Assembly (NCBI RefSeq): GCF_000968535.2
Contig: NC_016112.1
Span: 310,001 to 374,000, forward strand
Reading direction: 5' to 3'
Length of the DNA stretch: 64,000 nucleotides
Source of the DNA: Methylotuvimicrobium alcaliphilum 20Z
GTDB taxonomy: Bacteria > Pseudomonadota > Gammaproteobacteria > Methylococcales > Methylomonadaceae
Made by a program: the position numbers and the translations under genes. How positions within the stretch are numbered: the first letter of the stretch is position 1; each line of letters starts with the position of its first letter. Shown in pieces: positions 1,271 to 13,329 of the stretch. The notes beneath the pieces are model-generated. The model was not told the origin of the DNA, did no database searches, and saw only the letters and a program-made list of their open reading frames with translations.

Positions 1271-3012
1271 TTGACCTCCTCCATTTCTAGTACGCGAAGC
1301 GCGGCGGCGATCCGACCCGGCCGGAACAGCAGGGGGCCGGGCTCGGCAAGGCTACGAGTGTGCGGCGGCAGCTCGCAGCTGGCCCGCAGATACTGAAAGA
1401 ACTGAGCTCCGTGGCTTTGTTCGACCACCAACAGTCGCTTGATCCCGTCTAAAGCTGTAGTTAGTCGCACAGGATCAAGCGGTGCGATAAGCCTTAGCGA
1501 CACGAGGCGTACCGCCAATCCATCGGCACGAACCCGCGCAACGGCCTCGCGAGCCGCTTGGGTGGAGGAACCCCAGGTCAGTAACCCAAGAGATCCATCG
1601 CCCTCGATATCGGCCCAGTCATCACCGTAATCGAATTGCTCGAGCTTGCGGCGGCGCTTGTCCAACTGTAGGCGATGGTCGGCGGGCATGGCCGAGGGAC
1701 GCGCCGACGGCTTGTGGCTTAACCCCGTGGCTGTGTATTCGCTGCCCGGCGTGCCGGGAATGCCCATCATCGAGATGCCGTCGCTGCAATCCCTGAAACG
1801 TTGAAAATCCGCGATGTTCGCCGGCGCCCTGCGCCGCTTGGCGCGCCACTCGCGATCTTTCGGCGGCATAATGGCAGCGCGTGACTGGCCCAGAAACTGG
1901 TCGCTTAACACCACTGCCGGACATTGCAACGCCTCGGCCAGATATACGGCCCACTGGGTGGTCGTCATGCAGTCGCCAATGCCGTTGGGCGCCAACACCA
2001 ACCGAGGCGCATCGCCGTGGGCGCCATAAACGGCAATGGCGAGATCAGCCTGCTCGGACTTGGTGGGAATGCCAGTAGCCGGCCCGCCACGCATAACATC
2101 AACCACAACCAGTGGCGTCTCGGTCGCCACCGCAAGCCCAAGCGCTTCGACCATCAGGGAAAAACCGGGGCCCGAAGTGGCAGTCATGGCCGGCACCCCG
2201 CCAAACGAGGCGCCAATGCACATGTTTATCGAGGCGAGTTCGTCTTCGGCCTGCACCAGGCAGCCGCCTACCTCGGGGAGCCGTTCTGCCAACCACTCCT
2301 GAATCTCGGTAGAGGGCGTGATCGGATAGGTAGCACAGAACCGCACCCCGCCGCGCAGCGCCCCCATGCCGACGGCTTCGTTGCCGGTCAACAGCCAACG
2401 CGGTTGCGCTTGAGGCGGCGCGAGCTTGCAGGCACATTGAAGCGACTCGGCCGCGGAAATACCCGCCTGTAGTCCAGCCTGTATGACATCGGCAAACAGG
2501 TTTTCTTTTCCGATTAGCCGGCGTTTAATAGTATTCTTCATGCTGTCGAAATCGAGACCGACGAGTGCCCCGACGATGCCCACGGCAATGATATTGGCGC
2601 GTAAGCCGGAATGTTCGCGCGCAAGTTCGCTAAGCCTTACCGCGTAGTGGCGAGCACCCGAATCCGTCACCCAGACGGGCGGCTCGCCTTCAGCAGAGTC
2701 AGCAATAACCACGCTATCGGCATCCAGCACCAGTTCGTCGGAAAAGTGCTCGGCTTTGCCCCAGTCCAGCGCGACTAAGAGATCGATGCGATCATCCTGG
2801 CAGCCGATAGACGTCACGCCGAGCCGAAGCACCGCTGCGGCTTCGCCTCCCCGGATCTGTGGACCGGTGGAACGCGTCATCAAGCCGAAATAACCTGCCT
2901 CGGCAGCAACATCCAGAAGAATCTGCCCGGCGGTCATTACGCCGGCACCGCCGCTGCCGAGCAGAGTCAACGAGCAACTGTCCACGGGCGGTTTTTCTTG
3001 TGCCTCGTTCAT
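1267..3012 (-). CDS. korA: 2-oxoacid:ferredoxin oxidoreductase, fused gamma-alpha subunit
   Basis: The 581-residue product fuses the gamma domain (about residues 10-190, with GSGGAGVMTAG near the start and a STGPQIRGGE motif) to the alpha domain (about 205-581, with TYPITPSTE, the pyrimidine-binding-domain signature). With the beta subunit encoded just downstream it forms a two-gene oxidoreductase that would link 2-oxoacid oxidation to ferredoxin. The gamma-alpha fusion is usual in the KorA family. The next gene overlaps by four bases, so this is the first gene of a two-gene operon. No promoter was assigned. Confidence 0.9.
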   Translation of the reverse strand: MNEAQEKPPVDSCSLTLLGSGGAGVMTAGQILLDVAAEAGYFGLMTRSTGPQIRGGEAAAVLRLGVTSIGCQDDRIDLLVALDWGKAEHFSDELVLDADSVVIADSAEGEPPVWVTDSGARHYAVRLSELAREHSGLRANIIAVGIVGALVGLDFDSMKNTIKRRLIGKENLFADVIQAGLQAGISAAESLQCACKLAPPQAQPRWLLTGNEAVGMGALRGGVRFCATYPITPSTEIQEWLAERLPEVGGCLVQAEDELASINMCIGASFGGVPAMTATSGPGFSLMVEALGLAVATETPLVVVDVMRGGPATGIPTKSEQADLAIAVYGAHGDAPRLVLAPNGIGDCMTTTQWAVYLAEALQCPAVVLSDQFLGQSRAAIMPPKDREWRAKRRRAPANIADFQRFRDCSDGISMMGIPGTPGSEYTATGLSHKPSARPSAMPADHRLQLDKRRRKLEQFDYGDDWADIEGDGSLGLLTWGSSTQAAREAVARVRADGLAVRLVSLRLIAPLDPVRLTTALDGIKRLLVVEQSHGAQFFQYLRASCELPPHTRSLAEPGPLLFRPGRIAAALRVLEMEEVK

Positions 3013-3299
3013 CGCCGGTTGGCCCCGTCAGGCTTATCCATTCTTAAAATGTTCATGATTTATTCTCTGCACGGCGCGTCCCGACAGCTTGCAGGGGGGG
3101 CCGGCACTGCTGTGTGGGATTAAGCATAAGAAGTCCAATGGGCTGAATCGCGCATTTCAACCGGATTATGATCCGGGGAGGAAATGCCGTCAAGCGGGAG
3201 AAGAAGGCTAGAAAAATGGGTTGGGTTGAATTACAAAATAAACCCGGCGTCATTTATTTCACATTTTCAAAAAAGGCTATGAATCTCGATCTGACCCCG
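3013..3299. other. Intergenic between kor operon and cassette strip
   Basis: No supported gene. A short plus-strand open frame over 3168-3356 is rejected: no family signature, and it runs through an attC remnant. The segment ends at a GACCCCGTCC motif resembling the GGGGTCAG repeats nearby, which appears to cut the mazEF attC site. Confidence 0.5.
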
Positions 3300-3358
3300 T
3301 CCATGTGCGCAAACGAAACGTTGCGTAAATTTGTCCGAGTGAATGTGCATTGTTAGCT
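3300..3358 (-). other. attC remnant of the mazEF cassette (left part lost)
   Basis: On the minus strand AGCTAAC (3358 to 3352) follows the mazF stop after four bases. It is the exact complement of GTTAGCT at the upstream cassette border (minus 4020 to 4014), as required for the R'' and R' boxes of one integron cassette. Further in are AATGCACATTCACTC and GCGCACATGG, partial complementary arms. The other end is missing: the sequence runs into a GGGGTCAG repeat, so the site is probably dead. Confidence 0.6.
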
Positions 3359-3362
3359 ACAT

Positions 3363-3680
3363 CTAATACTCGAACATTTCTTTTAAGCACGAACACAGTT
3401 CTTTTTGTGTCTTTGCGCTCACCGCCCCAAGTTTTGTAACAAGCCTTGATTTATCAACTGCCCTAATTTTATCCAGCAGGATCAGACCGCTTTTTCCTTT
3501 TAACTTACATGGAACACGACAAGGAAACTCAAAACCCTTAGTCGTCATTGGAGCCATAAGAAACGTAGACAGAGCCGACACTTCATTGGGAGAAATGACA
3601 ACGCAAGGGCGTTTTTTATTGATCTCTCTTTCTTTTGTGGGATTGAGGTCAACGAGCCAAACTTCAAATCGCTTTATCAT
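3363..3680 (-). CDS. mazF: Type II toxin, MazF/PemK family endoribonuclease
   Basis: The 105-residue protein starts with the canonical PemK/MazF pattern (EVWLVDLNPTKEREINKKRP, then CVVISPNE). The family folds like CcdB/Kid and cleaves mRNA at short sequence motifs. Its start codon overlaps the antitoxin stop (TAATG), so the pair is translationally coupled. It lies inside an integron-type cassette bounded by matching GTTAGCT/AGCTAAC boxes; toxin-antitoxin cassettes are common in chromosomal cassette arrays and are thought to stabilise them. No frameshift or truncation was seen. Confidence 0.9.
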   Translation of the reverse strand: MIKRFEVWLVDLNPTKEREINKKRPCVVISPNEVSALSTFLMAPMTTKGFEFPCRVPCKLKGKSGLILLDKIRAVDKSRLVTKLGAVSAKTQKELCSCLKEMFEY

Positions 3681-3934
3681 TACCAGTCAAGCCCATCATC
3701 CGAGTCGAGAGGGAAATCCAACCATTCATCATCTAGCGACTCTTGCCCCTGAGCCGAAATTGTTTGTTCTATAGCTTCTTTCCATCCTTCTCTAACTCCA
3801 TTCTCCGGAATTATGAGGGGACCACCGTTAACCAATTGTAATTTAAGCTCTTTTACTTCCAAATGAGCCTGTTCAATCAAAGGCTTAGGTATTCTTATGC
3901 CTTGCGAATTCCCTATTCGTACTAGCTGAGTCAT
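3680..3934 (-). CDS. mazE: Type II antitoxin, MazE/AbrB family
   Basis: The 84-residue protein begins with the SpoVT/AbrB swapped-hairpin motif (VRIGNSQGIRIPKPLIEQA). Its acidic tail (DDEWLDFPLDSDDGLDW) is typical of the disordered region that wraps MazF. It neutralises the downstream toxin and, in known pairs, represses the operon. It begins 80-90 bases inside the cassette border at 4020, leaving little room, so the promoter may lie in the cassette leader (3935-4013). The start is supported by GGGAG upstream. Confidence 0.88.
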   Translation of the reverse strand: MTQLVRIGNSQGIRIPKPLIEQAHLEVKELKLQLVNGGPLIIPENGVREGWKEAIEQTISAQGQESLDDEWLDFPLDSDDGLDW

Positions 3935-4013
3935 TTGACTGCACTCCCATTATTTACCGAATTTAGCGTAACCATAATGTAATTAAAACTTGAGAGAATG
4001 ATTGTTTTTGAGC

Positions 4014-4056
4014 AGCTAACGCCAAGCTTCAAGCTGAACGCGCCAAAGGCGCGTCG
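4014..4056 (-). other. attC remnant at the start of the mazEF cassette
   Basis: Read on the minus strand the site ends in GCTTGGCGTTAGCT, where GTTAGCT is the R' box (recombination G/TT). It is preceded by a CGACGCGCC/GGCGCG stem-loop typical of attC sites. The outer R'' half is missing: beyond CAGCCGACGC the sequence becomes unrelated and runs into a TCAGGTCTTACAATTG repeat. The box matches the AGCTAAC box after mazF, which marks the mazEF segment as one cassette. Confidence 0.65.
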
Positions 4057-4157
4057 GCTGAAAAGAAGTCGGAAGAATTTATATGGAGAATGGAAGTCGG
4101 TAATATCAATTGTAAGACCTGACCTCAAGAACCAAGCAAAAAATTTAGGGTTATGTA

Positions 4158-4430
4158 TTATTCGTAGTGGCTCCAGAGCCGAAGAACTTTAACTACTCGT
4201 TCATCTTCAAGTACTTGGTACACTAGGCGATGCTGAATATTGATCCGGCGGGAATAGGCTCCCGTAAGATCGCCGATGAGCTTCTCAAACGGAGGCGGCT
4301 TACGATACGGATCTTTTGCTATCAGCTCCACCAATTTCTGTGCTTTTAGCTTCAGGCCGCTGGAGGCCAACTTCTTTGCATTCCTCTGAGCTTGCTTGGT
4401 GTAAACCAACTTCCATGCGGTAAATGTCAC
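4158..4430 (-). CDS. yoeB: Type II toxin, YoeB (Txe) family mRNA interferase
   Basis: The 90-residue protein has the YoeB fold signature: WKLVYTKQAQRNAKKL at the start, then SRRINIQHRLVYQV and a C-terminal LWSHYE. In E. coli YoeB the equivalent Arg, His and Tyr are catalytic in ribosome-dependent mRNA cleavage. It overlaps the upstream antitoxin by four bases. It lies between two attC remnants, but no attC directly follows it, so it may have arrived separately or its site has decayed. Confidence 0.9.
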   Translation of the reverse strand: MTFTAWKLVYTKQAQRNAKKLASSGLKLKAQKLVELIAKDPYRKPPPFEKLIGDLTGAYSRRINIQHRLVYQVLEDERVVKVLRLWSHYE

Positions 4431-4669
4431 CAGTCGAGCTCTTCATTGCATTCATCCACAGGAGTATCCATACCCTTCCGAATAGACTCACGCATGCCTG
4501 GTACGGATAGCAGGTAAAGCGTTTCCTGAATTGCAGACCAATCTTCTTCGGAAACCAGAACAGCTTTATTCCGTTTACCCGTGATGACGATTGGTTGGTG
4601 AGATTCGGCGGTTTCATCAATCAACCGATAAAGGTTGCTGCGCGCCTCAGTTGCAGTTATTCCGGTCAT
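4427..4669 (-). CDS. yefM: Type II antitoxin, YefM/Phd family
   Basis: The 80-residue product has the Phd/YefM N-terminal pattern (ITATEARSNLYRLIDETAES, QPIVITGKRNKAVLVSEEDW). The C-terminal tail is acidic and would bind the toxin. Phd/YefM proteins repress their own operon through TGTACA-like sites; such a site is present at 4702-4725. It is the first gene of a two-gene operon with yoeB. A second, distinct yefM-yoeB pair sits at 29523-30031. Confidence 0.9.
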   Translation of the reverse strand: MTGITATEARSNLYRLIDETAESHQPIVITGKRNKAVLVSEEDWSAIQETLYLLSVPGMRESIRKGMDTPVDECNEELDW

Positions 4670-4701
4670 GACATACCTCTGCTGTGTTCAAATTATCTTA
4701 A

Positions 4702-4725
4702 GTGTACGCCTTTTAGTACGTACGT
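4702..4725 (-). promoter_or_regulatory. Probable YefM operator
   Basis: Just upstream of yefM (start 4669) are TGTAC at 4703-4707 and GTACGTAC at 4716-4723. YefM of E. coli binds TGTACA-type motifs (established), and the other yefM operon in this window has a very similar site. Autorepression here is inferred. Confidence 0.5.
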
Positions 4726-4743
4726 CAAGACGAACGCTATGTA

Positions 4744-4792
4744 GAAAAAAGGGAGAAGGTTAAATTATTAATTAAACCTGACCCCTTTTTTG
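4744..4792. repeat. Hairpin repeat, AAAAAGGG...CCCTTTTT family
   Basis: An imperfect palindrome: AAAAAAGGGAGAAGG and TTAAATTATTAATTAA, then ACCTGACCCCTTTTTT. Related copies occur at 4966-5014, 30233-30282, 31027-31078 and 34273-34319, all with a GGGTTAATT-like arm, an AT-rich loop and a CCCCTTTTT arm. It could act as a bidirectional terminator; it is at present best described as a dispersed palindromic repeat. Confidence 0.6.
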
Positions 4793-4965
4793 GACAGTGA
4801 AACAGACGGAAAAGAGGGATAATGTCAAATGTAAGGCCTGACTCCGTCTTTTTGGGTCGATTATTCCAGCATATTTGGCTGGATGTCCAGGGTTGCCGGA
4901 CCTTGTTGGCGAATCACTAGATATTGGGGGCTACCACGGGAAATCCGGAAGAGCCAAAAGGTGAC
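4793..4965. repeat. Intergenic strip with GTAAGGCCTGACTCC-type repeat
   Basis: The segment holds AATGTCAAATGTAAGGCCTG followed by ACTCCGTCTTTTT, a relative of AATATCAATTGTAAGACCTG near 4103. Sequences like this often flank REP-associated transposases in other genomes (general knowledge). CTACCACGGGAAATCCGGAA at 4932-4951 is shared with 31000-31022, so the repeat unit extends left of the hairpin. No gene. Confidence 0.45.
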
Positions 4966-5014
4966 TAAAAAAAGGGTCGGGTTAAAACATTAATTTAACC
5001 CGCCCCCTTTTTTA
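4966..5014. repeat. Hairpin repeat interrupting a DUF2971-like fragment
   Basis: AAAAAAAGGGTCGGGTTAAA and ATTAATTTAACCCGCCCCC plus a T run form a long stem. The stop codon of the minus-strand fragment at 5012-5182 is made by the first bases of this repeat. This suggests that insertion of the hairpin, or a deletion ending at it, cut that gene. Confidence 0.6.
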
Positions 5015-5182
5015 CCGAATATATTTTCTTGGATTCTCTTCAAAAAGATCTCCTAGAATTGTGGAGTCATACAAGCCCTCTTCTGGATCGCTTTGTGAAA
5101 TCGCCGGACCGAAGTACAGTCCTCTATCAGCCACAAGCCACTCCAGCTTTTCTTTTGTTAAGTAGCGCCAAACTTTACTCAT
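5012..5182 (-). pseudogene. Truncated DUF2971-like protein (N-terminal fragment)
   Basis: From an ATG at 5182 the frame gives 56 residues beginning MSKVWRYLTKEKLEWLVADR and continuing GLYFGPAISQSDPEEG. This resembles the first strand-helix and (S/D)P-E-G region of DUF2971 proteins, which are normally 200-350 residues. The frame ends exactly where the hairpin repeat begins. An in-frame upstream start at 5209 is possible but would start inside the cassette leader. It lies directly after the attC at 5214-5287, so it is probably the relic of a further cassette. Family assignment is tentative. Confidence 0.4.
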
Positions 5183-5213
5183 AGGATAATTCCGGTACCT
5201 TGTGGGCACACAT

Positions 5214-5287
5214 GGCTAACGCCTTAATAACCGGCGCGCTTTTGTGTGTCCGGCGCCGAAGGCGCGTAGTTCATTGAACTGTTATAT
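5214..5287 (-). other. attC site of the DUF4917 cassette
   Basis: On the minus strand the site runs from ATATAAC (R'' box, 5287 to 5281) to GTTAGCC (R' box, 5220 to 5214). Between them are arms such as ACGCGCC and GCGCGCCGG around a variable loop. It follows the DUF4917 stop by about 15 bases. ATATAAC is the exact complement of GTTATAT at the other border of this cassette (minus 6406 to 6400), as expected for an inserted integron cassette. Confidence 0.75.
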
Positions 5288-5302
5288 GGTTTCTTGGCTA
5301 AG

Positions 5303-6349
5303 CTACGCATGGGAGGAGCGACCCCAGACATCGACGGAAGAAGAGTCATAAAACTCGAAAACCTTACCACGATAAGACTTCCTCCATTTCTCGACCTTAC
5401 TAATAATCACTTGATTGTGCGGCTCTCCTATATCCCCGAAGAGCCCAATGAAGACTCTAAGGCTTTTGTTATTCTGATTGATAAAGTCAAATACATGATC
5501 ATCCTCGTCACGAATAGAATGACCAAATATAAATAGATTTCCAGTGATGCTTTTTAATGAAGAAAATGTTCTCGATAAATAACCATTTTTTTTGATTCGT
5601 GCCAATTTATGATCGGTAGATCCCTCTGATATAAATACAGGAAATCTATCCTCATCTATCGCCTGCCTGACCTGTTCGGCTAGAGGGACACCTAGGTTCG
5701 TATAAGACAACTTTTCTATATCAGAGCCATCGCTAAATATGTGCATTGCGCCATGTATGTAGTAGATACTTTGCCCCCTTTCTCGACCGATCTCCCAGTG
5801 CAGTGACAAGTCCCTTTCTTCTTCAGGAACATATTCGTCCGAATACGGATAACGAAAACCATCATCACAAGGTAACTTAAGCTCGGGATGGTCATGAAAG
5901 TGCATCAAAACCCAGTAAAGAATAAGATCATAGTTGAAGGTATAGGTGTTTCCCTTTTCAAAATTCAATAGAAATTTACGACAGCTAGAGTATTGATGCT
6001 CAGTTATTTCGGATGGTTTATGTGGGTGACACTTTGATATAACATGGATAAGCGTACGCTTTAGCTCTTCAATATCATTATGGATATGATTTGTAATTCC
6101 ATCAGATGAATCATAATGTTTTACGATTTCTTCAGCTTCCAGCAATCGACGCATGACGAATTCAAAGTCAGGGGTGTCTATAGCTTCGAATAGCAGCTTT
6201 ATCCGATCAGATTCGATATTTTCAGCAAGCCTTTTATAGTTAAATATCTGTGGAAATAAAGCGATGCTGAAACCATTTCCAAGCATCAAATGCTTTTTCC
6301 CATTTCCGGCCATATCTATACAGTCATCGAATGATTTGATCTGAGTCAA
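5303..6349 (-). CDS. DUF4917 family protein (SIR2-like fold), integron cassette gene
   Basis: The 348-residue protein matches the DUF4917 pattern: a glycine-rich nucleotide-binding-like loop LMLGNGFSIAL near residue 21, TFNYDLILYW about 137-146, YIHGAMHIF about 197-205 and IFGHSIRDEDDHVFDF about 274-289. The order is like that of SIR2-type NAD-consuming proteins (GxGxS, NYD, HG, GxS..D). No biochemical role is established for the family. SIR2-like domains act as NADases in several anti-phage systems, so a defence role is possible but unproven. The gene is the sole content of a cassette bounded by two attC sites, has lower GC than the core genes and is intact. Confidence 0.7.
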   Translation of the reverse strand: MTQIKSFDDCIDMAGNGKKHLMLGNGFSIALFPQIFNYKRLAENIESDRIKLLFEAIDTPDFEFVMRRLLEAEEIVKHYDSSDGITNHIHNDIEELKRTLIHVISKCHPHKPSEITEHQYSSCRKFLLNFEKGNTYTFNYDLILYWVLMHFHDHPELKLPCDDGFRYPYSDEYVPEEERDLSLHWEIGRERGQSIYYIHGAMHIFSDGSDIEKLSYTNLGVPLAEQVRQAIDEDRFPVFISEGSTDHKLARIKKNGYLSRTFSSLKSITGNLFIFGHSIRDEDDHVFDFINQNNKSLRVFIGLFGDIGEPHNQVIISKVEKWRKSYRGKVFEFYDSSSVDVWGRSSHA

Positions 6350-6399
6350 CTTTCTATCCTTATGAAACTGATTCGGGTTAAGCTTGCCACTATGGAGAC

Positions 6400-6477
6400 A
6401 TATAACGTCCGGCTCACGCGCCGGTTTGGAGCCGCGGAGCGGCGGAAAATCGGTCGCTGTGCAGCCGATTGTTAAGC
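6400..6477 (-). other. attC site between DUF4326 and DUF4917 cassettes
   Basis: On the minus strand GCTTAAC (R'') is followed by AATCGGCTGCAC, a loop region, GTGAGCCGGAC and GTTATAT (R'). The arm CGGCTGCAC pairs with GTGAGCCG if one G is left unpaired, which is the extrahelical base that directs strand choice by IntI. The site is 78 bp, within the normal attC range, and begins at the stop codon of the DUF4326 gene. This is the best-preserved attC of the strip. Confidence 0.8.
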
Positions 6478-6478
6478 A

Positions 6479-6922
6479 CTACTCCCCGTCATCCCAAGAA
6501 TTGAGGAAGTCTGCCAACACATCACCGTGACAAGCCTCTGGCTTGCAATAGCAACCTAGTCTTTTTCCAGCCAGCTTGTATGCTTCAGACTTATCTTTAT
6601 TAGGAAATTTCTCAAAATCAAAATCGTACTTGAACTTCCTTATAACCTCGTCCCTATCATCACCATCTTCATACATTGAGTAAGGGTTGCCCCAATATGA
6701 GCCCCTCCCAATATACTCGTACTTTTCATTCGAAGTGAGTCCTTTATACTCCGTATCTTTTTTGATATTTATAACTCTAGTGATCTTAATTTTTATCCTT
6801 CTAACTACCACGCCCCTGAGCTTAAGGTCAGCTAATTCTTCTACGAATTCTTCTCCGTCATCAAATATAACAGCATGAGTAACCTGCTCAAAGCCAAACT
6901 CGGAAATGCCTTCTTTAGTCAC
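6479..6922 (-). CDS. DUF4326 domain protein, cassette gene
   Basis: The 147-residue product has the DUF4326 core in its C-terminal half: YIGRGSYWGNPY, then RLGCYCKPEACHGDVLADFL. The conserved Cys and His residues could bind metal. Function is not known; the family occurs in phages and mobile islands. The only reasonable start is GTG at 6922. Directly upstream the sequence becomes an AAAAGGGGTCAGGTTAC repeat and no matching GTTAAGC cassette border is visible, so the cassette was cut there and the true N-terminus may be lost. Confidence 0.7.
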   Translation of the reverse strand: MTKEGISEFGFEQVTHAVIFDDGEEFVEELADLKLRGVVVRRIKIKITRVINIKKDTEYKGLTSNEKYEYIGRGSYWGNPYSMYEDGDDRDEVIRKFKYDFDFEKFPNKDKSEAYKLAGKRLGCYCKPEACHGDVLADFLNSWDDGE

Positions 6923-7029
6923 ACCCAGAAAAGGGGTCAGGTTACTTTTTATGGATAATGGAAGACGATACTAAAAGCAACCCGCCGTCTTTTTGAAGCA
7001 GTCGCCGAGCGGGTTGAAAATCGATAGCA

Positions 7030-7245
7030 TCAAGCCGCATCCAATTCTCTCAACGGCAAATGCAGCAACGACAGATTCTGAATATCCGCCTTTTGACTCG
7101 CATGCTGGACATCGATACCTACCAAAGCGCCGGTTTCATCGAAGTCCAAAACAACGCCGTCGGCCACTTCGTCTGAATCGACCGATGGCCGGTCGGCTAA
7201 ATGTATGTAAAGAGAGTCCGTGTTTTGGTCGTAACTCAGTTTCAT
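7030..7245 (-). CDS. DUF2283 family protein
   Basis: The 71-residue protein has the DUF2283 signature: YDQNTDSLYIHLADRP, then VVLDFDETGALVGIDVQHAS. These small proteins are of unknown function and are often found next to toxin-antitoxin genes. Here it lies just downstream of the toxin-antitoxin-chaperone operon on the same strand with a gap of about 120 bases. ATG start at 7245. Confidence 0.75.
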   Translation of the reverse strand: MKLSYDQNTDSLYIHLADRPSVDSDEVADGVVLDFDETGALVGIDVQHASQKADIQNLSLLHLPLRELDAA

Positions 7246-7367
7246 GGTTTTAATCTTCGATCAGAAAAAGCGTTATGGACTGTTTTACCATCTTCCTGTG
7301 TGACGACCCGTAAGGGCATGAGGTTATCTTTGTGGGTTGTACCGTTTAGTCTCGTCGGATGAGCCGC

Positions 7368-7784
7368 TTAATCGGCGATATTCGAGTCAATCTTGATCGT
7401 AATTGGAACGAAATCCAAATATAGAGCCCCCCAGGGGCCGCGTGCTGTCATTTCAGCTAATCGTTCCCTGATAACGCCGATAAGCAGTTGAGCGCCGGAT
7501 GTTTCTATATGGGGTTCGGCCACTACGGGATCAACTCCATCTTTTATAACGAGAATGCCGAAGGCGGTAATCGTTATAAAGTAAGGTGCATTGCCGCTCT
7601 TTTCCTGATTAAGCTCAACTTTAGCGCTAATGCCATACTTACCGGGCTGTCCTTCAATGCGGTTTGCGCTGGCATCCACCAAAAAGTCGATATGTTTAAC
7701 ATCGGCTACTTGGTGCTCCGGGTTGGCGATAACTTGTTGCTCTGTAAAAAAATAGCGTTCAAGCCGCAGTGGAAATTCTGTCAT
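7368..7784 (-). CDS. SecB-like chaperone of a toxin-antitoxin-chaperone module
   Basis: The 138-residue protein resembles SecB: an N-terminal beta segment (FPLRLERYFFTEQQVIANPE), a hydrophobic middle (YFITITAFGILVI) and the helix-turn region RERLAEMTARGPWGALYLDF, close to the GxFPPLxLxPVNF zone of SecB. It starts inside the upstream antitoxin gene (26-base overlap), so the two are translated together. SecB-like proteins in this position are known in toxin-antitoxin-chaperone systems, where the chaperone folds the antitoxin and protects it from proteolysis. A role in general export is less likely given the operon. Confidence 0.75.
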   Translation of the reverse strand: MTEFPLRLERYFFTEQQVIANPEHQVADVKHIDFLVDASANRIEGQPGKYGISAKVELNQEKSGNAPYFITITAFGILVIKDGVDPVVAEPHIETSGAQLLIGVIRERLAEMTARGPWGALYLDFVPITIKIDSNIAD

Positions 7785-8145
7785 TTGTTTTCTTTCCGGC
7801 TATTTTCCATTCATTGCCAATTTCTTCCGGCTGTTCTTGTGTTTGTAAAACATCGAACCAGTGACTTTTCAGCTGCTTTGGCGCGATATGTATATGCAAT
7901 TGCCCGTCTACTGCCCGTGTCAATTTGGTCATCGTTTCGATAGTAAAATTAACATCGCCGCGAAATACTTTGGTGATATAGGCTGGACTGGTACCCAGTT
8001 TTTCGGCAAGCGCTTTTTGGGACATGCCGCTTTTTTCAAATAGTCGATTCAATGCAACGGAAAAATCCAGCTTTGCTTTTTCCACCCAATAGCTATCGCG
8101 TTGTTTGGCATCGGCCAACAATTTTTTAAAGGATTTTAGCGCCAT
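7759..8145 (-). CDS. HigA-like XRE antitoxin with C-terminal extension
   Basis: The 128-residue protein has a helix-turn-helix of the Cro/C1 type at about 25-80 (FEKSGMSQKALAEKLGTSPA, YITKVFRGDVNFT). After it follows a 40-residue tail without a known fold, rich in polar residues. In chaperone-dependent antitoxins such a tail (chaperone addiction region) is what the SecB-like partner binds; that role here is inferred. It begins immediately after the toxin stop and overlaps the chaperone start by 26 bases. Likely repressor of its own operon through the palindrome at 8562-8579. Confidence 0.8.
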   Translation of the reverse strand: MALKSFKKLLADAKQRDSYWVEKAKLDFSVALNRLFEKSGMSQKALAEKLGTSPAYITKVFRGDVNFTIETMTKLTRAVDGQLHIHIAPKQLKSHWFDVLQTQEQPEEIGNEWKIAGKKTNDRISTAA

Positions 8146-8559
8146 TTATTCCTCCCGATCTTCTATTAGATCGATGTTTTCTGCATCATGTGCTTGTTGA
8201 TATTGTTTCTTATATCGAACCGCCTTGTTTTTTTCGTTATCCGGTGTTTTCTGCGACTTTTTTAAAAAACCATGCGAGGTAATGATTAAGATGTCGCAAT
8301 GTCCTTTAAAAAACAACAGGCGCAGATCGCCTTTTATCAGCTCGTAGATTTTATTTTCTTTATCGACCAGGTGGCATAGCTTGGTCGATAAGCCATCCAA
8401 ACCATGTTCAGCAATGCGTTCGATCAAATGTATCAGACCTTCGGCACTGGCTTGGTATTTCGTCGAAATGTCATTCAAGAAAGTTTCCGTTTCACACTCA
8501 TCGCCGTTCATTGCGGCAGCGATTGTATAACGAGTGCGGTGTAGTACTTTCAATTTCAT
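8146..8559 (-). CDS. HigB-like toxin (RelE superfamily)
   Basis: The 137-residue protein has the pattern of the phage-derived Gp49/HigB group: TKLCHLVDKENKIYELIKGD followed by LRLLFFKGHCDILIITSHGFLKK, the last beta strands and the catalytic region of RelE-type toxins. This group cleaves mRNA on the ribosome. The C-terminal tail after 115 is charged and probably disordered. The toxin-first order (toxin, antitoxin, chaperone) is that of HigBA-type and TAC operons. ATG at 8559 sits only two bases after the operator palindrome. Confidence 0.78.
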   Translation of the reverse strand: MKLKVLHRTRYTIAAAMNGDECETETFLNDISTKYQASAEGLIHLIERIAEHGLDGLSTKLCHLVDKENKIYELIKGDLRLLFFKGHCDILIITSHGFLKKSQKTPDNEKNKAVRYKKQYQQAHDAENIDLIEDREE

Positions 8560-8561
8560 AT

Positions 8562-8596
8562 ATTAACTTATAGGTTAATTTTTGCAATACAGGCAA
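8562..8596 (-). promoter_or_regulatory. Operator and probable promoter of the toxin-antitoxin-chaperone operon
   Basis: ATTAACTTATAGGTTAAT at 8562-8579 is a perfect 6-bp-arm palindrome next to the toxin ATG. On the minus strand it contains TATAAG (8572-8567), with TTGCCT 18 bases upstream (8596-8591), so it may be both -10 region and operator. Transcription would then start at or within a few bases of the ATG. Binding by the HigA-like protein is inferred. Confidence 0.45.
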
Positions 8597-8678
8597 CAAA
8601 CTTTCCTAAACATTTATCGATAGCAACGTGCTCTTTGGTAATGAGCTGTCCCACAAAAAATTCCTCTCACAACCTCCA

Positions 8679-9362
8679 TCACCCACACTTCGACTCCCCA
8701 CAATTCAAGCAAGTCATACACCCGTCCATCAGCACCATAGCTTTGGTGCTGCATTTGGTGCAGAGTACGGCTTGTTCCGGGAAGGCGTCGCCGTTATTTG
8801 CCGCGCCGTGGTGGGCTTCGAATTCGCGGCGTTTTTCGGCGAGAAACTGTTTCTGGTGATCGCTCATTTCTTCGGGCTGGATCATGCCGATGTGTTTTAA
8901 ATGCGATTCGATCGCGTGGCCGATTTCGGCGACCAGCGAGGGCATGAAGACGCCGCCTTTTTTGAAGTAGCCGCCGCGCGGGTCGAATACCGCTTTCAGC
9001 TCTTCGACCAGGAAGCAGGCGTCGCCGCCTTTGCGGAATACCGCCGAGATGACGCGCGTCAGCGCCAGCACCCATTGGAAATGCTCCATGTTCTTTGAGT
9101 TGATGAAGACTTCGTAAGGTCGGCGTTCTTCGTGCTCGGAGCCTTGGTTTAGGATGATGTCGTTGACCGTGATGTACAGCGCATGTTCGGATTGCGGCGT
9201 TTTGATCTTGTAGGTCGAGCCGACCAGAACTTCGGGCCGTTCGATGTTTTCGTGCATCGATTCCGGGGACGGTTTTTCCGCTTCCGGTTGTGCCGTTTCG
9301 GCGCTGTCTTTGGTCAGCACTTTGTAGCTGACGATTTTTTTATTGATTTTGTGCAAGGTCAT
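8679..9362 (-). CDS. nrdJb: Ribonucleotide reductase class II, small C-terminal subunit NrdJb
   Basis: The 227-residue protein carries the TSCPD-type domain usually fused to the C-terminus of B12-dependent ribonucleotide reductases (FINSKNMEHFQWVLALTRVI, RKGGDACFLVEELKAVFDP) and ends in cysteine pairs (CTKCSTKA, CLNCGESKCG). The last cysteines would re-reduce the active-site disulfide of NrdJa. Split NrdJa/NrdJb is known in Pseudomonas, where NrdJb has about the same length. It is transcribed in the same direction as nrdJa but separated from it by a DUF2442 gene and a REP-like hairpin. Confidence 0.85.
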   Translation of the reverse strand: MTLHKINKKIVSYKVLTKDSAETAQPEAEKPSPESMHENIERPEVLVGSTYKIKTPQSEHALYITVNDIILNQGSEHEERRPYEVFINSKNMEHFQWVLALTRVISAVFRKGGDACFLVEELKAVFDPRGGYFKKGGVFMPSLVAEIGHAIESHLKHIGMIQPEEMSDHQKQFLAEKRREFEAHHGAANNGDAFPEQAVLCTKCSTKAMVLMDGCMTCLNCGESKCG

Positions 9363-9858: not shown

Positions 9859-12800
9859 TCAAAACTTTCCGTAATATCCTTCCTTCAGCGCATCGAACAA
9901 ATTCGCGGCGGAATGGATTTCGCCGTCGTACTCGACTTCTTCGTTGCCTTTCAATTCGATGACATGGCCGTCTTCGAGCGTGAACTGGTAGGTCGTGTTT
10001 TCAAGGTCTTTTTCCTTGACCAACACGCCCTGGAACACTTCCGGATTAAAGCGGAATGTCGTGCAGCCTTTTAAACCTTGGTCGTAGGCGTATTCGTAGA
10101 TCGACTTGAAGTCTTCGTACGGATAGTCGGTCGGCACGTTTGCGGTTTTCGAGATCGACGAATCGATCCATTTTTGCGCGGCGGCCTGGATATCGACATG
10201 TTGTATCGGCGTGACATCGTCGGCGGCGATGAAGTAATTCGGCAATTGCGCGTTCGGGTCGTCGCTGTACGGCATCGCGTTTGGGTTGACCATGTGGCGA
10301 TAGGCCAGCAGTTCGAACGAGAACACGTCGATCTTTTCCTTGGACTTTTTGCCTTCGCGGATCACGTTGCGCGAATAATGGTGGGCAAAGCTCGGTTCGA
10401 TGCCGTTGCTGGCGTTGTTCGCGAGCGACAAAGAAATCGTGCCGGTCGGCGCGATCGAGCTGTGATGCGTGAAGCGGCAGCCGACTTTGGCCAGTTCGTC
10501 GACCAGTTTGGGCTCTTCTTGGGCCAGTTGCTGCATGTAGCGGCTGTATTTCGCGTGCAACACTTTGCCTGGCACTTTGTCGCCGATTTTATAGCCGTCT
10601 TGCTGCATTTCCGGGCGTTTGTACAGCATTTCGCCGGTGACCGTGAACACTTGCTCCATTATCGGTGCCGGACCTTTTTCTTTCGCGAGTTCCAGTCCGA
10701 CCTTCCAGCCTTCAATAGCCAGCGCTTTGGTGACTTCTTCGGTAAAGGCCAAAGACTCTTCCTCGCCGTATTTCAAACCAAGCATCGTCAAGGTCGAGCC
10801 CAAGCCGAGATAGCCCATGCCGTGGCGGCGCTTGCCGAAGATTTCGTCGCGCTGTTGTTGTAGCGGCAGTCCGTTGATTTCGACGACATTGTCGAGCATG
10901 CGTGTAAAGATGCGCACGGTCTTGCGGAAACCTTCCCAATCGAAACCGGCCTCTTTACTGAACGGTTTTTCGACGAATCGGGTCAGGTTGATCGAGCCGA
11001 GCAGACACGAACCGTAAGGTGGCAATGGTTGTTCGCCACATGGGTTAGTCGCCCGAATATTTTCACAGAACCAGTTGTTGTTCATCTCGTTGACCTTGTC
11101 GATCAGGATGAAGCCCGGTTCGGCGTAGTCGTAGGTCGACGACATGATGATGTCCCACAGGCGGCGGGCCGGCATGGTTTTGGTTATGCGGCACGCGACT
11201 AGGCCGGCTTCGTTGACGACATAGCTTTTTTTGTTCGGCAGATCGCGCCAGACGATTTTGTCGGAATCGGTCAAATCGATAGCATCGGCCTTGACTTCGC
11301 GCTCGGTGACAGGAAACGACAACGGCCATTGCGCATCGTTTTTGACCGCTTCGACGAACTCGCGGGTGATCAGCAGCGACAGATTGAACTGACGCAAACG
11401 GCCGTCTTCGCGTTTGGCGCGGATGAAATCGACGACGTCCGGGTGCGCGACGTCGAAGGTCGCCATTTGCGCACCGCGGCGGCCGCCGGCAGACGAAACC
11501 GTAAAACACATCTTGTCATAGATATCCATGAACGACAGCGGTCCGGAGGTGTAGGCGCCGGCGCCGGACACGTAGGCATTTTTCGGACGTAGCGTCGAAA
11601 ATTCATAGCCGATGCCGCAGTTATGGATCACCATTAAGCCATTGTTGCCGGCCAAATAGTTGTTGTGCCGATCGACGTTAAAATCATAAAACGTTTCGCC
11701 GAGAGGTAGATTTCGTCGAATACTTTTCACCGGGCGCAACTGACGGACGGCGTCGATCATCGTTTTCAACTGAGGAAAAAGACACTGCCAGCGGTCGAGA
11801 TAGATTCTGCTCACAGTCGGCTGCAAATGTTTACCGTGATAGATACCCAAATGCTGCTTTTCAACATGCGTCAAATCGGCGGAGACTTCTTTCAAAGCGT
11901 TTTTCAATGCCGAAGTCATCGCATAATGATCGTATTGGCCCGATTGGCTTCGGTGCTCAATAATTCTACGTTTTTTGCCGCTGTCCGCCATATAGGCGGA
12001 CACTTCGGCTAAAAAGTCGGAATCCGAAATCTTGACCGAACAACCGCCCGAATCCTTGATCAGATTACCGTTATAAACATGCTCGCGCGGCTTACGTTCG
12101 GTTACCGAGGCATGAATGCCGAATAAAGCTAGCAAAGATTGAATCTCCCGTGCGAATTCAGCATTCCGGCAGCTTAAGCTGGCGCTGCCGTGTTCAGTAT
12201 TAACCGTACCGTCGGTATCCAATAGGCCGGCTAAAAAAGGCAGAAAATAGTTTTCCGGTGCTTGCTTGATCCATTGCGGTACGGAAAGATGGTGTGATTT
12301 TTTACCGATTTGATCGTCGATGATTTCGCTCGCCAAGCTAGCTCTGAAACTGGCAACGGTAAAATCCCAAGCCGGCGTGTCATTCGCAGTAATTGCCGCA
12401 ACGACTTTGGCGTTGCATTGGCAAAACTCTCTGAAAAACAGCGCATAACGCTCCACGACTTCGCGTTCTGCCGCGCGAATCTTGAAAATCAGGCGCGATC
12501 CGACCGCGTCGGCCTTTTCGCGCCATTTTTGCCGTAGCGGGGAATATGTCATTTTTTTCGGATAAGCGGAACCGTCGCCTAAGTGTGCACCGGCGAACCA
12601 GGCTTTCAATGCGGCGGAATCATCCGCTTGCCAAGGCAATTGATGATGAATGAGCGCATCGCTTGGCTGAACCTCATCGGCGCGGACATACTGCATTTTT
12701 TCGTCACGATAAATCAGCACAGGATGCTTGATTGACGTCGTCAATGTGCCCAAATGCGATGAAATCTCGATGTTTTCATCGATAGGCACCGATGTGGTCA

Positions 12801-13329
12801 TGTGCTTTAAAATCGGTTGCATTTCAAAAAGCCGCGATTTTTTGTCGTAGCTCAGAATGAATCGATGCTTTTCTTCGACCGCACACTTGGCGGTGACATA
12901 ACCTTGTTCGGTATAAACCAAAGTATTGGGAGCGACACATCCGGCTTTTAGCGTAAGCCCCGCCTCATGCACTTTCGCCAGAATATCGTCCATCGAATCT
13001 TCGATGATGCCCGAGACGGTGCAGTTGATCGTCGAGGTTGCCGGCTTGTGTTCCAGCGCGCCGGCGTTCGATGTGATACGGCCTGCGGGAATCGCGCCTT
13101 TACGCAATGCCCAAAGAAATTCCTTGTGCCAATGCTCCTGCAAAGACTTGTTGGTCTCGACCTCGGCCAAGGCTTTTGCGACGCGTTTGTATGTGTCGTC
13201 TATCGTGCCGTCGACGGCCTTGCCGTCTTTGGTTTTCAGGCGGTATTTGCTGTCCCAGATGTCCAGCGATGCGCTTTGCAGTGGAATTTCGGTCGCGTGT
13301 TGCGTAACGACTTGGAGTTTTGCGGTCAT
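9859..13329 (-). CDS. nrdJa: B12-dependent ribonucleotide reductase NrdJa, interrupted by an intein
   Basis: The 1156-residue product is a class II ribonucleoside-diphosphate reductase of 716 residues plus a 440-residue intein. Extein motifs: INCTVS (Cys103), CGIGYEFS directly after the intein (residue 571 on), and the radical-site NPCGEQPLPPYGSCLLGSIN. The mature enzyme makes deoxynucleotides using adenosylcobalamin with or without oxygen; the C-terminal cysteine shuttle is on NrdJb downstream. The intein must splice for activity because it sits in the catalytic barrel. ATG start at 13329, with a candidate NrdR box about 140 bases upstream. Confidence 0.92.
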   Translation of the reverse strand: MTAKLQVVTQHATEIPLQSASLDIWDSKYRLKTKDGKAVDGTIDDTYKRVAKALAEVETNKSLQEHWHKEFLWALRKGAIPAGRITSNAGALEHKPATSTINCTVSGIIEDSMDDILAKVHEAGLTLKAGCVAPNTLVYTEQGYVTAKCAVEEKHRFILSYDKKSRLFEMQPILKHMTTSVPIDENIEISSHLGTLTTSIKHPVLIYRDEKMQYVRADEVQPSDALIHHQLPWQADDSAALKAWFAGAHLGDGSAYPKKMTYSPLRQKWREKADAVGSRLIFKIRAAEREVVERYALFFREFCQCNAKVVAAITANDTPAWDFTVASFRASLASEIIDDQIGKKSHHLSVPQWIKQAPENYFLPFLAGLLDTDGTVNTEHGSASLSCRNAEFAREIQSLLALFGIHASVTERKPREHVYNGNLIKDSGGCSVKISDSDFLAEVSAYMADSGKKRRIIEHRSQSGQYDHYAMTSALKNALKEVSADLTHVEKQHLGIYHGKHLQPTVSRIYLDRWQCLFPQLKTMIDAVRQLRPVKSIRRNLPLGETFYDFNVDRHNNYLAGNNGLMVIHNCGIGYEFSTLRPKNAYVSGAGAYTSGPLSFMDIYDKMCFTVSSAGGRRGAQMATFDVAHPDVVDFIRAKREDGRLRQFNLSLLITREFVEAVKNDAQWPLSFPVTEREVKADAIDLTDSDKIVWRDLPNKKSYVVNEAGLVACRITKTMPARRLWDIIMSSTYDYAEPGFILIDKVNEMNNNWFCENIRATNPCGEQPLPPYGSCLLGSINLTRFVEKPFSKEAGFDWEGFRKTVRIFTRMLDNVVEINGLPLQQQRDEIFGKRRHGMGYLGLGSTLTMLGLKYGEEESLAFTEEVTKALAIEGWKVGLELAKEKGPAPIMEQVFTVTGEMLYKRPEMQQDGYKIGDKVPGKVLHAKYSRYMQQLAQEEPKLVDELAKVGCRFTHHSSIAPTGTISLSLANNASNGIEPSFAHHYSRNVIREGKKSKEKIDVFSFELLAYRHMVNPNAMPYSDDPNAQLPNYFIAADDVTPIQHVDIQAAAQKWIDSSISKTANVPTDYPYEDFKSIYEYAYDQGLKGCTTFRFNPEVFQGVLVKEKDLENTTYQFTLEDGHVIELKGNEEVEYDGEIHSAANLFDALKEGYYGKF
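11620..12939 (-). mobile_element. Intein in NrdJa with LAGLIDADG-type homing endonuclease
   Basis: Residues 131-570 of the nrdJa product form an in-frame intein. It starts with Cys (CVAPNTLVYTEQGYV), contains the block B pattern TTSIKHPV, two dodecapeptide-like motifs (FAGAHLGDGSA and FLAGLLDTDGTV) and ends NNYLAGNNGLMVIHN followed by Cys. All terminal splicing residues (Cys1, block B His, penultimate His, final Asn, +1 Cys) are present, so splicing is probably active. The second dodecapeptide keeps its acidic residue; the first is divergent (HLGDG), so endonuclease activity is uncertain. Confidence 0.92.

Follow-up and report, generated by a model that had tools for sequence, protein, structure and literature searches.

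The 64,000-nucleotide stretch of the methanotroph Methylotuvimicrobium alcaliphilum 20Z analysed here (contig NC_016112.1, positions 310,001 to 374,000 of the forward strand; "the window" throughout) carries near its left end a block of small genes, at about 3297-6943, that raises a simple question: are these genes what is left of an integron and, if so, how did they come to lie in a window in which no integron integrase gene (intI) is found? Our answer to the first part is that the block is very probably a CALIN (a cluster of attC sites lacking an integron integrase), what erosion has left of a former integron array of gene cassettes. The second part is taken up after the evidence on the sites, the cassettes, the surrounding slot and the integrase has been given. 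The four sites or remnants in question are as follows, in window coordinates, with scores from the covariance model R2 described below.

6400..6477, minus strand: attC4, a complete attC with R'' GCTTAAC and R' GTTATAT; part of the DUF4326 cassette; 31.6 bits
5214..5287, minus strand: attC3, a complete, weaker attC with R'' ATATAAC and R' GTTAGCC; part of the DUF4917 cassette; 23.0 bits
4014..4074 (about), minus strand: attC2, decayed, with L' and R' intact and TTCCGAC in the R'' place
3308..3358 (about), minus strand: attC1, a half site that keeps R'' AGCTAAC, L'' and the apex, the L'-R' side being gone

Two complete attC sites

Two covariance models were built here. R1 was trained on 7 attC sites of the same genome, all outside the window, and R2 on 14 sites outside the window, 9 from the same genome and 5 from other genomes. 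Fifteen sites had been prepared for R2, one of which (10916-11002 of locus L020) was dropped before alignment owing to a misfit of register, and R2 does not recover one of its own training sites (109-229 of locus L090). With default filters and expectation values (E) up to 5, R2 gives exactly two matches in the 64-kb window, 6400-6477 and 5214-5287, both on the minus strand. Applied to the whole genome, it gives at least 15 matches up to E 3 (150 of 1158 candidates scored), nine of them training sites, and among the matches listed attC4 stands 10th (E 0.003) and attC3 14th (E 0.34). In the window, R1 finds attC4 only, with 26.5 bits. The two sites that pass R2 are 1.1 kb apart and lie on the same strand as the genes. 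R2 was built without the window, and IntegronFinder 2.0 calls a CALIN from at least two attC sites (PMC9024848, in the part of that article available to us). By this rule the block is a CALIN: at least two attC sites lie close together in one orientation, and no integron integrase is matched in the window.

The geometry of the sites points the same way. The R'' and R' boxes of attC3 and attC4 are NNNTAAC-like and GTTANNN-like and stand 50-150 nt apart. We searched the window for NNNTAAC and GTTANNN boxes at that distance whose L boxes form six pairs interrupted by an unpaired base on the L'' side, the box positions being taken from sites outside the window, though attC3 and attC4 had already been seen by then. 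All six pairs are found at attC3 and attC4 only, as compared with a single case in 20 mononucleotide shuffles of the window. Folded as DNA, attC4 forms a bulged hairpin (z -3.9), and none of 200 shuffles is equally stable. A looser scan for hairpins, which used R boxes and folding, proved useless: it listed 34 candidates for the window and 60 for one shuffled version, and 24, 16 and 14 candidates in loci L020, L021 and L022 against 18, 32 and 12 after shuffling (among the matches listed). Box pairing inside a single site was likewise discarded as a criterion, because a site's R' is part of the cassette that follows. At gathering scores Rfam gave no match in the window, and a tRNA gene search of the window found none, so the block is not part of a tRNA-borne island.

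A first-pass annotation, made from the letters alone, had placed four attC sites or remnants at 3300-3358, 4014-4056, 5214-5287 and 6400-6477, all pointing one way, and had read them as a CALIN. The last two hold as complete sites at just these coordinates, by R2 and by geometry, whereas the first two are mere remnants without an R2 match, one keeping only about 3308-3358 and the other reaching to about 4074. Their common direction is borne out, as both complete sites are on the minus strand and the remaining halves of attC1 and attC2 are compatible with that orientation. The box pairs on which the annotation had relied are also present: AGCTAAC at 4014-4020 with GTTAGCT at 3352-3358, and ATATAAC at 6400-6406 with GTTATAT at 5281-5287, complementary as expected from cassette integration. 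Its R'' and R' labels were swapped, having been assigned by the plus strand when genes and sites lie on the minus strand, but the argument survives because complementarity is symmetric in orientation. Pairing of the boxes by folding, which it had treated as decisive, is seen at attC4, is clouded at attC3 by a better competing fold, and lacks support at attC1, where folding (z 0.16) does not speak for a site. The covariance-model search that it had proposed was made with R1 and R2, which between them match attC3 and attC4 in the window and in the genome. With two sites passing R2, and relatives of two cassettes sitting between cassette boxes, its CALIN interpretation is supported.

As for the remnants, the attC2-like tail recurs at two other places, in genus relatives G002 and G004, with TCCCAAC in the R'' place, and a copy in G002 that adjoins mazEF is likewise without a clear R''. 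We had considered the sequence next to attC2 as a plain dispersed repeat and rejected this, as the attC tail recurs elsewhere in both genomes.

Cassettes and their relatives

Read in gene sense, the block runs: DUF4326 remnant, attC4, DUF4917, attC3, a 65-codon open reading frame, repeats, YefM-YoeB, attC2, mazEF, attC1. Its cargo amounts to two toxin-antitoxin modules and two genes that may be of a phage-defence kind.

6479..6922, minus strand: mSLOG-DUF4326 gene, 5'-truncated, with the profile matched at 60-105 of 105 only
5220..6405, minus strand: complete cassette with matching end boxes, comprising the DUF4917/PDC-S21 gene (5303-6349) and attC3
5012..5209, minus strand: 65-codon open reading frame, the first after attC3 in cassette sense
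4158..4669, minus strand: YefM antitoxin (4427-4669) and Txe/YoeB toxin (4158-4430); PF02604 E 1.7e-20, PF06769 E 1.1e-10, TIGR02116
3353..4019, minus strand: mazEF cassette with truncated attC; antitoxin 3680-3934, toxin 3363-3680

The DUF4917 protein matches PF16263 (E 9.6e-61) and the PADLOC model PDC-S21 (E 1.8e-112). For mazEF, PF02452 is matched at E 7.1e-26 and PF04014 slightly under its cut-off. No Pfam, NCBIfam or PADLOC match at E up to 0.01 is found for the 65-codon frame. The first-pass annotation had each segment hold one gene or operon, and this fails for 4020-5219; because that segment holds YefM/YoeB, the 65-codon frame and dispersed repeats, an attC has probably been lost within it. 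The G+C content is 0.60 left of the block and 0.39-0.47 inside it.

The mazEF and DUF4326 units recur between matching boxes in other genomic settings. A second mazEF copy lies in the same genome 1.7 Mb away, 92% identical over 670 bp with a further 36-bp piece. Upstream of the antitoxin the two copies diverge within one base after AGCTAAC, the same core-site border; at their opposite end they remain alike as far as 3316, within the half attC. This second copy is about 26 kb from intI and has attC sites of its own nearby (2019589, 2022815). Directly past its truncated attC, a fragment (L018, 4555-4986) resembles by eye a REP-associated transposase; a Y1_Tnp match lies at 18240-18599 of L019. 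Among 31 relatives in public genomes, the R''-type box GCTAAC occurs no more than 30 nt after the MazF match in seven, the background expectation being 0.007 per locus. In two of the 31 loci, L074 and L082, the sequence runs out less than about 6 nt from the match, and counting to the mazF stop adds L053, which is the same locus in M. buryatense 5G and not independent. The boxes that precede mazE and follow mazF show perfect complementarity over 8 nt in L068 and complementarity save for the last base in L066, where R1 also gives a weak attC beside mazEF (16.6 bits, E 0.19).

The closest relative of the DUF4326 gene (69%, in L090) stands third and last in a row of genes flanked by boxes matching over 9 nt; the attC behind it is found by R2, and the front one was read by eye and is not returned by R2. 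A further relative, L091, has boxes that agree over 10 nt, and there R2 finds both attC sites. All of these attC sites are in the R2 training set, and the two genomes are from the same class. The mSLOG profile is matched in full (1-105) in L090 as compared with 60-105 in the window, and from this the window gene may be read as the stump of a longer, L090-like cassette. The other two genes of the L090 cassette match PADLOC PDC-M45C and PDC-M45A, and the DUF4326 protein matches no PADLOC model. The row itself (L090, 109-2001, from a gammaproteobacterium) consists of DuOB, DUF488 and mSLOG-DUF4326 genes between the matching boxes, and L091 has like boxes at 603-1946, an intact DUF488 frame being absent among the open reading frames listed there. 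For DUF4917, a survey of 274 genomes turned up four distant homologues in addition to the window gene.

Adjoining the block, at 7368-8559, genes for a SecB-like protein (match under cut-off), an HTH protein and a Gp49-type protein stand in a row, which looks like a toxin-antitoxin-chaperone module.

A variable slot with dispersed repeats

The block fills a variable slot between conserved oxidoreductase and TSCPD genes. These flanking genes share a contig in G002, G003 and G004 and are split between two contigs in G005; in G001 only right-side parts were seen. Other inserts occupy the slot in G002, G003 and G004, and its content differs among them; a search of these three slots with TIGR02249 at E up to 1e-30 found nothing, shorter remnants not having been looked for. 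The G005 slot has one attC (L050, 2302-2418), an R1 match that later became an R2 training site. As far as 4791, G004 shows 99% identity to the window; from there to 8683 it differs, except for short repeats. The left conserved flank ends at 3289 in G002, at 3296 in G003 and at 3281 in G005. Some breaks of the block coincide with a dispersed repeat motif, CCTGACCCC, of which the copies concerned are these.

3289..3297, plus strand: dispersed-repeat motif TCTGACCCC, marking the variable block's left edge
4117..4125, plus strand: dispersed-repeat motif CCTGACCTC, the junction used in G003
4776..4791, plus strand: dispersed-repeat motif CCTGACCCCTTTTTT, the break point toward G004
6928..6943, minus strand: dispersed-repeat motif adjoining the DUF4326 gene where it is cut short at its 5' end; the block end in G005 is at 6934

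In G003, 3296 is joined to 4116 via GACCTGACC. Allowing up to 1 mismatch, the motif AACCTGACCCCTTTTT occurs 37 times in the genome, as compared with once for the reversed control. In 3200-8683, 6 of 18 distinct ends of conserved blocks fall within 12 nt of a CTGACC motif, a value that circular shifts reach in 0.15%; the support is weaker than this figure, because the motif was picked after the breaks had been seen and because three of these ends represent a single boundary found in three species. A bolder proposal, which we think rather unlikely, is that CCTGACCCC elements are the break-and-join points by which pieces of arrays leave integrons, are trimmed and become fixed elsewhere in the genus, so that scattered CALINs would be the product of a repeat family and not of integrase loss on the spot.

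Apart from the block, the ribonucleotide reductase gene of the window has by eye an intein-like insert at 11620-12937 that is absent from G001, G003, G004 and G005. An insert of about 1.1 kb is found instead at window position 11040 in G001, G004 and G005, giving two alternative insert positions in a single gene within one genus.

The integrase

The genome contains 18 TIGR02249 matches at E up to 0.001, of which one is over the family cut-off and none lies in the window, in agreement with the first-pass statement that intI is missing there. The one over the cut-off is a resident integrase 1.7 Mb from the block (C2:2049996-2051432, equal to L019 9996-11432; minus strand, 478-codon frame), whose TIGR02249 match at C2:2050011-2050949 scores 374 bits against a cut-off of 265. 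R2 finds attC sites beside it at 2052440, 2054424, 2056192 and 2057618, and the L'' motif of attC1, CACTCGGAC, is common to two attC sites that adjoin it. The resident integrase has Lys aligned to the Arg of GLRL in structure 2a3v. All six other copies over the cut-off in the genus have Arg at this position, leaving Lys in one of seven, in this genome only. We take this Arg (first catalytic box, Arg-I) to be a catalytic residue. The protein also has an N-terminal extension of about 160 residues, shared by four of the six other copies and in part by a fifth. Degraded intI pieces, 34-39% identical to the resident one, are present in L020, L021 and L022 (C2 1335692, 1068322 and 2589573-2589907), each with attC sites within about 6 kb; these are the remains of several separate integrons in one chromosome.

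Origin of the block

A number of results weigh against reading the block as the remainder of a cassette array. An unfiltered R1 scan of the window gave weak matches only, with neither attC3 nor attC4 among them, an omission that we attribute to a length limit. attC3 is missed by R1, the narrower model, in any case, and its genome-wide E with R2 is only 0.34; its folding (z -2.1, equalled in 5 of 200 shuffles) is also less favourable, with the attC fold 4.7 kcal/mol above a competing, unconstrained minimum. Neither attC1 nor attC2 is found by R2, the R''-L''-L'-R' structure being incomplete in both. R2 returned two attC sites over the 31 MazF loci, neither of them beside mazEF, and in most mazEF relatives any attC is reduced to the box. 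At the loci of the DUF4917 homologues neither R1 nor R2 finds an attC, and no cassette setting is seen elsewhere for this gene. The G+C content right of the block, 0.41-0.51, shows no clear contrast, and the Lys in the resident integrase is no proof of inactivity. One might then take all four sites for chance look-alikes, ordinary inverted repeats among toxin-antitoxin modules in a variable region, seeing that two of the four fail R2 and that the loose hairpin scan finds no more in the window than in a shuffle. This we hold to be exceedingly improbable: attC3 and attC4 are the sole R2 matches in the window and its sole cases with six of six L-box pairs, and relatives of two cassettes have cassette boxes.

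How an array came to be here without its integrase may be explained in more than one way. A complete integron could have stood in this place, lost intI and left its cassettes, a course of events to which the broken intI pieces elsewhere in the genome, with attC sites nearby, lend some colour. We find it quite unlikely, as the slot carries other inserts in G002, G003 and G004 and integrase searches of the window (E up to 0.001) and of the slot in those three genomes (E up to 1e-30; shorter remnants not looked for) found nothing, and for the latter reason we favour a displaced fragment of an array over loss of intI on the spot. The chief rival is direct insertion, in which a trans-acting integrase would have placed the cassettes singly at a non-classical attG site rather than as a piece of an array. 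Insertion at attG is established (Loot et al. 2024, as reported in the available parts of PMC12901181 and PMC12690207), and the integron 1.7 Mb away has attC sites that share the L'' motif of attC1. Against this, the left border of the block is the dispersed-repeat motif at 3289-3297, with no visible G|TT exchange point, and neither border has a complete attC against the conserved flank; direct insertion is in our estimation unlikely, yet to be taken seriously.

On the favoured reading, that of a displaced array fragment, an integron integrase would have joined the cassettes successively by exchanging the folded bottom strands of attC at G|TT, as the boxes suggest. The block would then have come to lie outside the integron, in a slot that varies within the genus, and attC halves and gene ends would have been lost there through rearrangement at short dispersed repeats. 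The genes are presumably kept through their own toxin-antitoxin and defence functions. The block is probably immobile now, because two of its four sites are damaged and the one integrase of the genome that exceeds the cut-off has Lys for Arg.

Comparison with known systems

CALINs are common, 2961 of them being counted in the IntegronFinder 2.0 dataset (PMC9024848, in the part available to us), and the block, though real, is an unremarkable case of a familiar kind of element. A literature search for Methylomicrobium alcaliphilum or Methylotuvimicrobium together with integron found no record of this array, which the supplements of surveys may list. The general picture of integrons is unaltered by it. 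What it adds is a case in which relatives within a genus show the decay of an array, with attC halves lost, R'' gone and gene ends clipped beside short dispersed repeats, and two candidate phage-defence families, PDC-S21 and PDC-M45, among cassette-borne genes.

The block has what CALINs have: at least two attC sites in one orientation, genes in the same sense, no intI nearby and, as is typical, few sites. It differs in nothing essential; two of its four sites are broken, and dispersed repeats stand between its cassettes. The integron of the same genome (C2:2049996-2057674) is alike in that the L'' motif CACTCGGAC of attC1 recurs in two of its attC sites and unlike in that intI adjoins its array; a DNA comparison of 2000001-2060000 with window positions 3000-7100 found no common cassette inside that array. 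A CALIN rich in toxin-antitoxin cassettes has been described in a halophile, Halorhodospira halochloris (PMC7923331, as far as the accessible text goes). It too is gammaproteobacterial, is rich in type II toxin-antitoxin cassettes and has no adjoining intI. According to the same text, that array has 10 cassettes, group IIB introns and a neighbouring IS200/605 element, and its genome lacks intI, whereas the block has about four cassettes, no such element is seen within it, and intI is present elsewhere in the genome. Finally, attC sites truncated so that only parts such as R'' are left form a class recognized by Partridge 2009 (cited in the available part of PMC12901181), to which the mazEF cassette, keeping R'' without the far half of attC, corresponds. 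The difference from that class as described there is that the truncated cassette occurs here twice in one genome, with the shared sequence ending alike.

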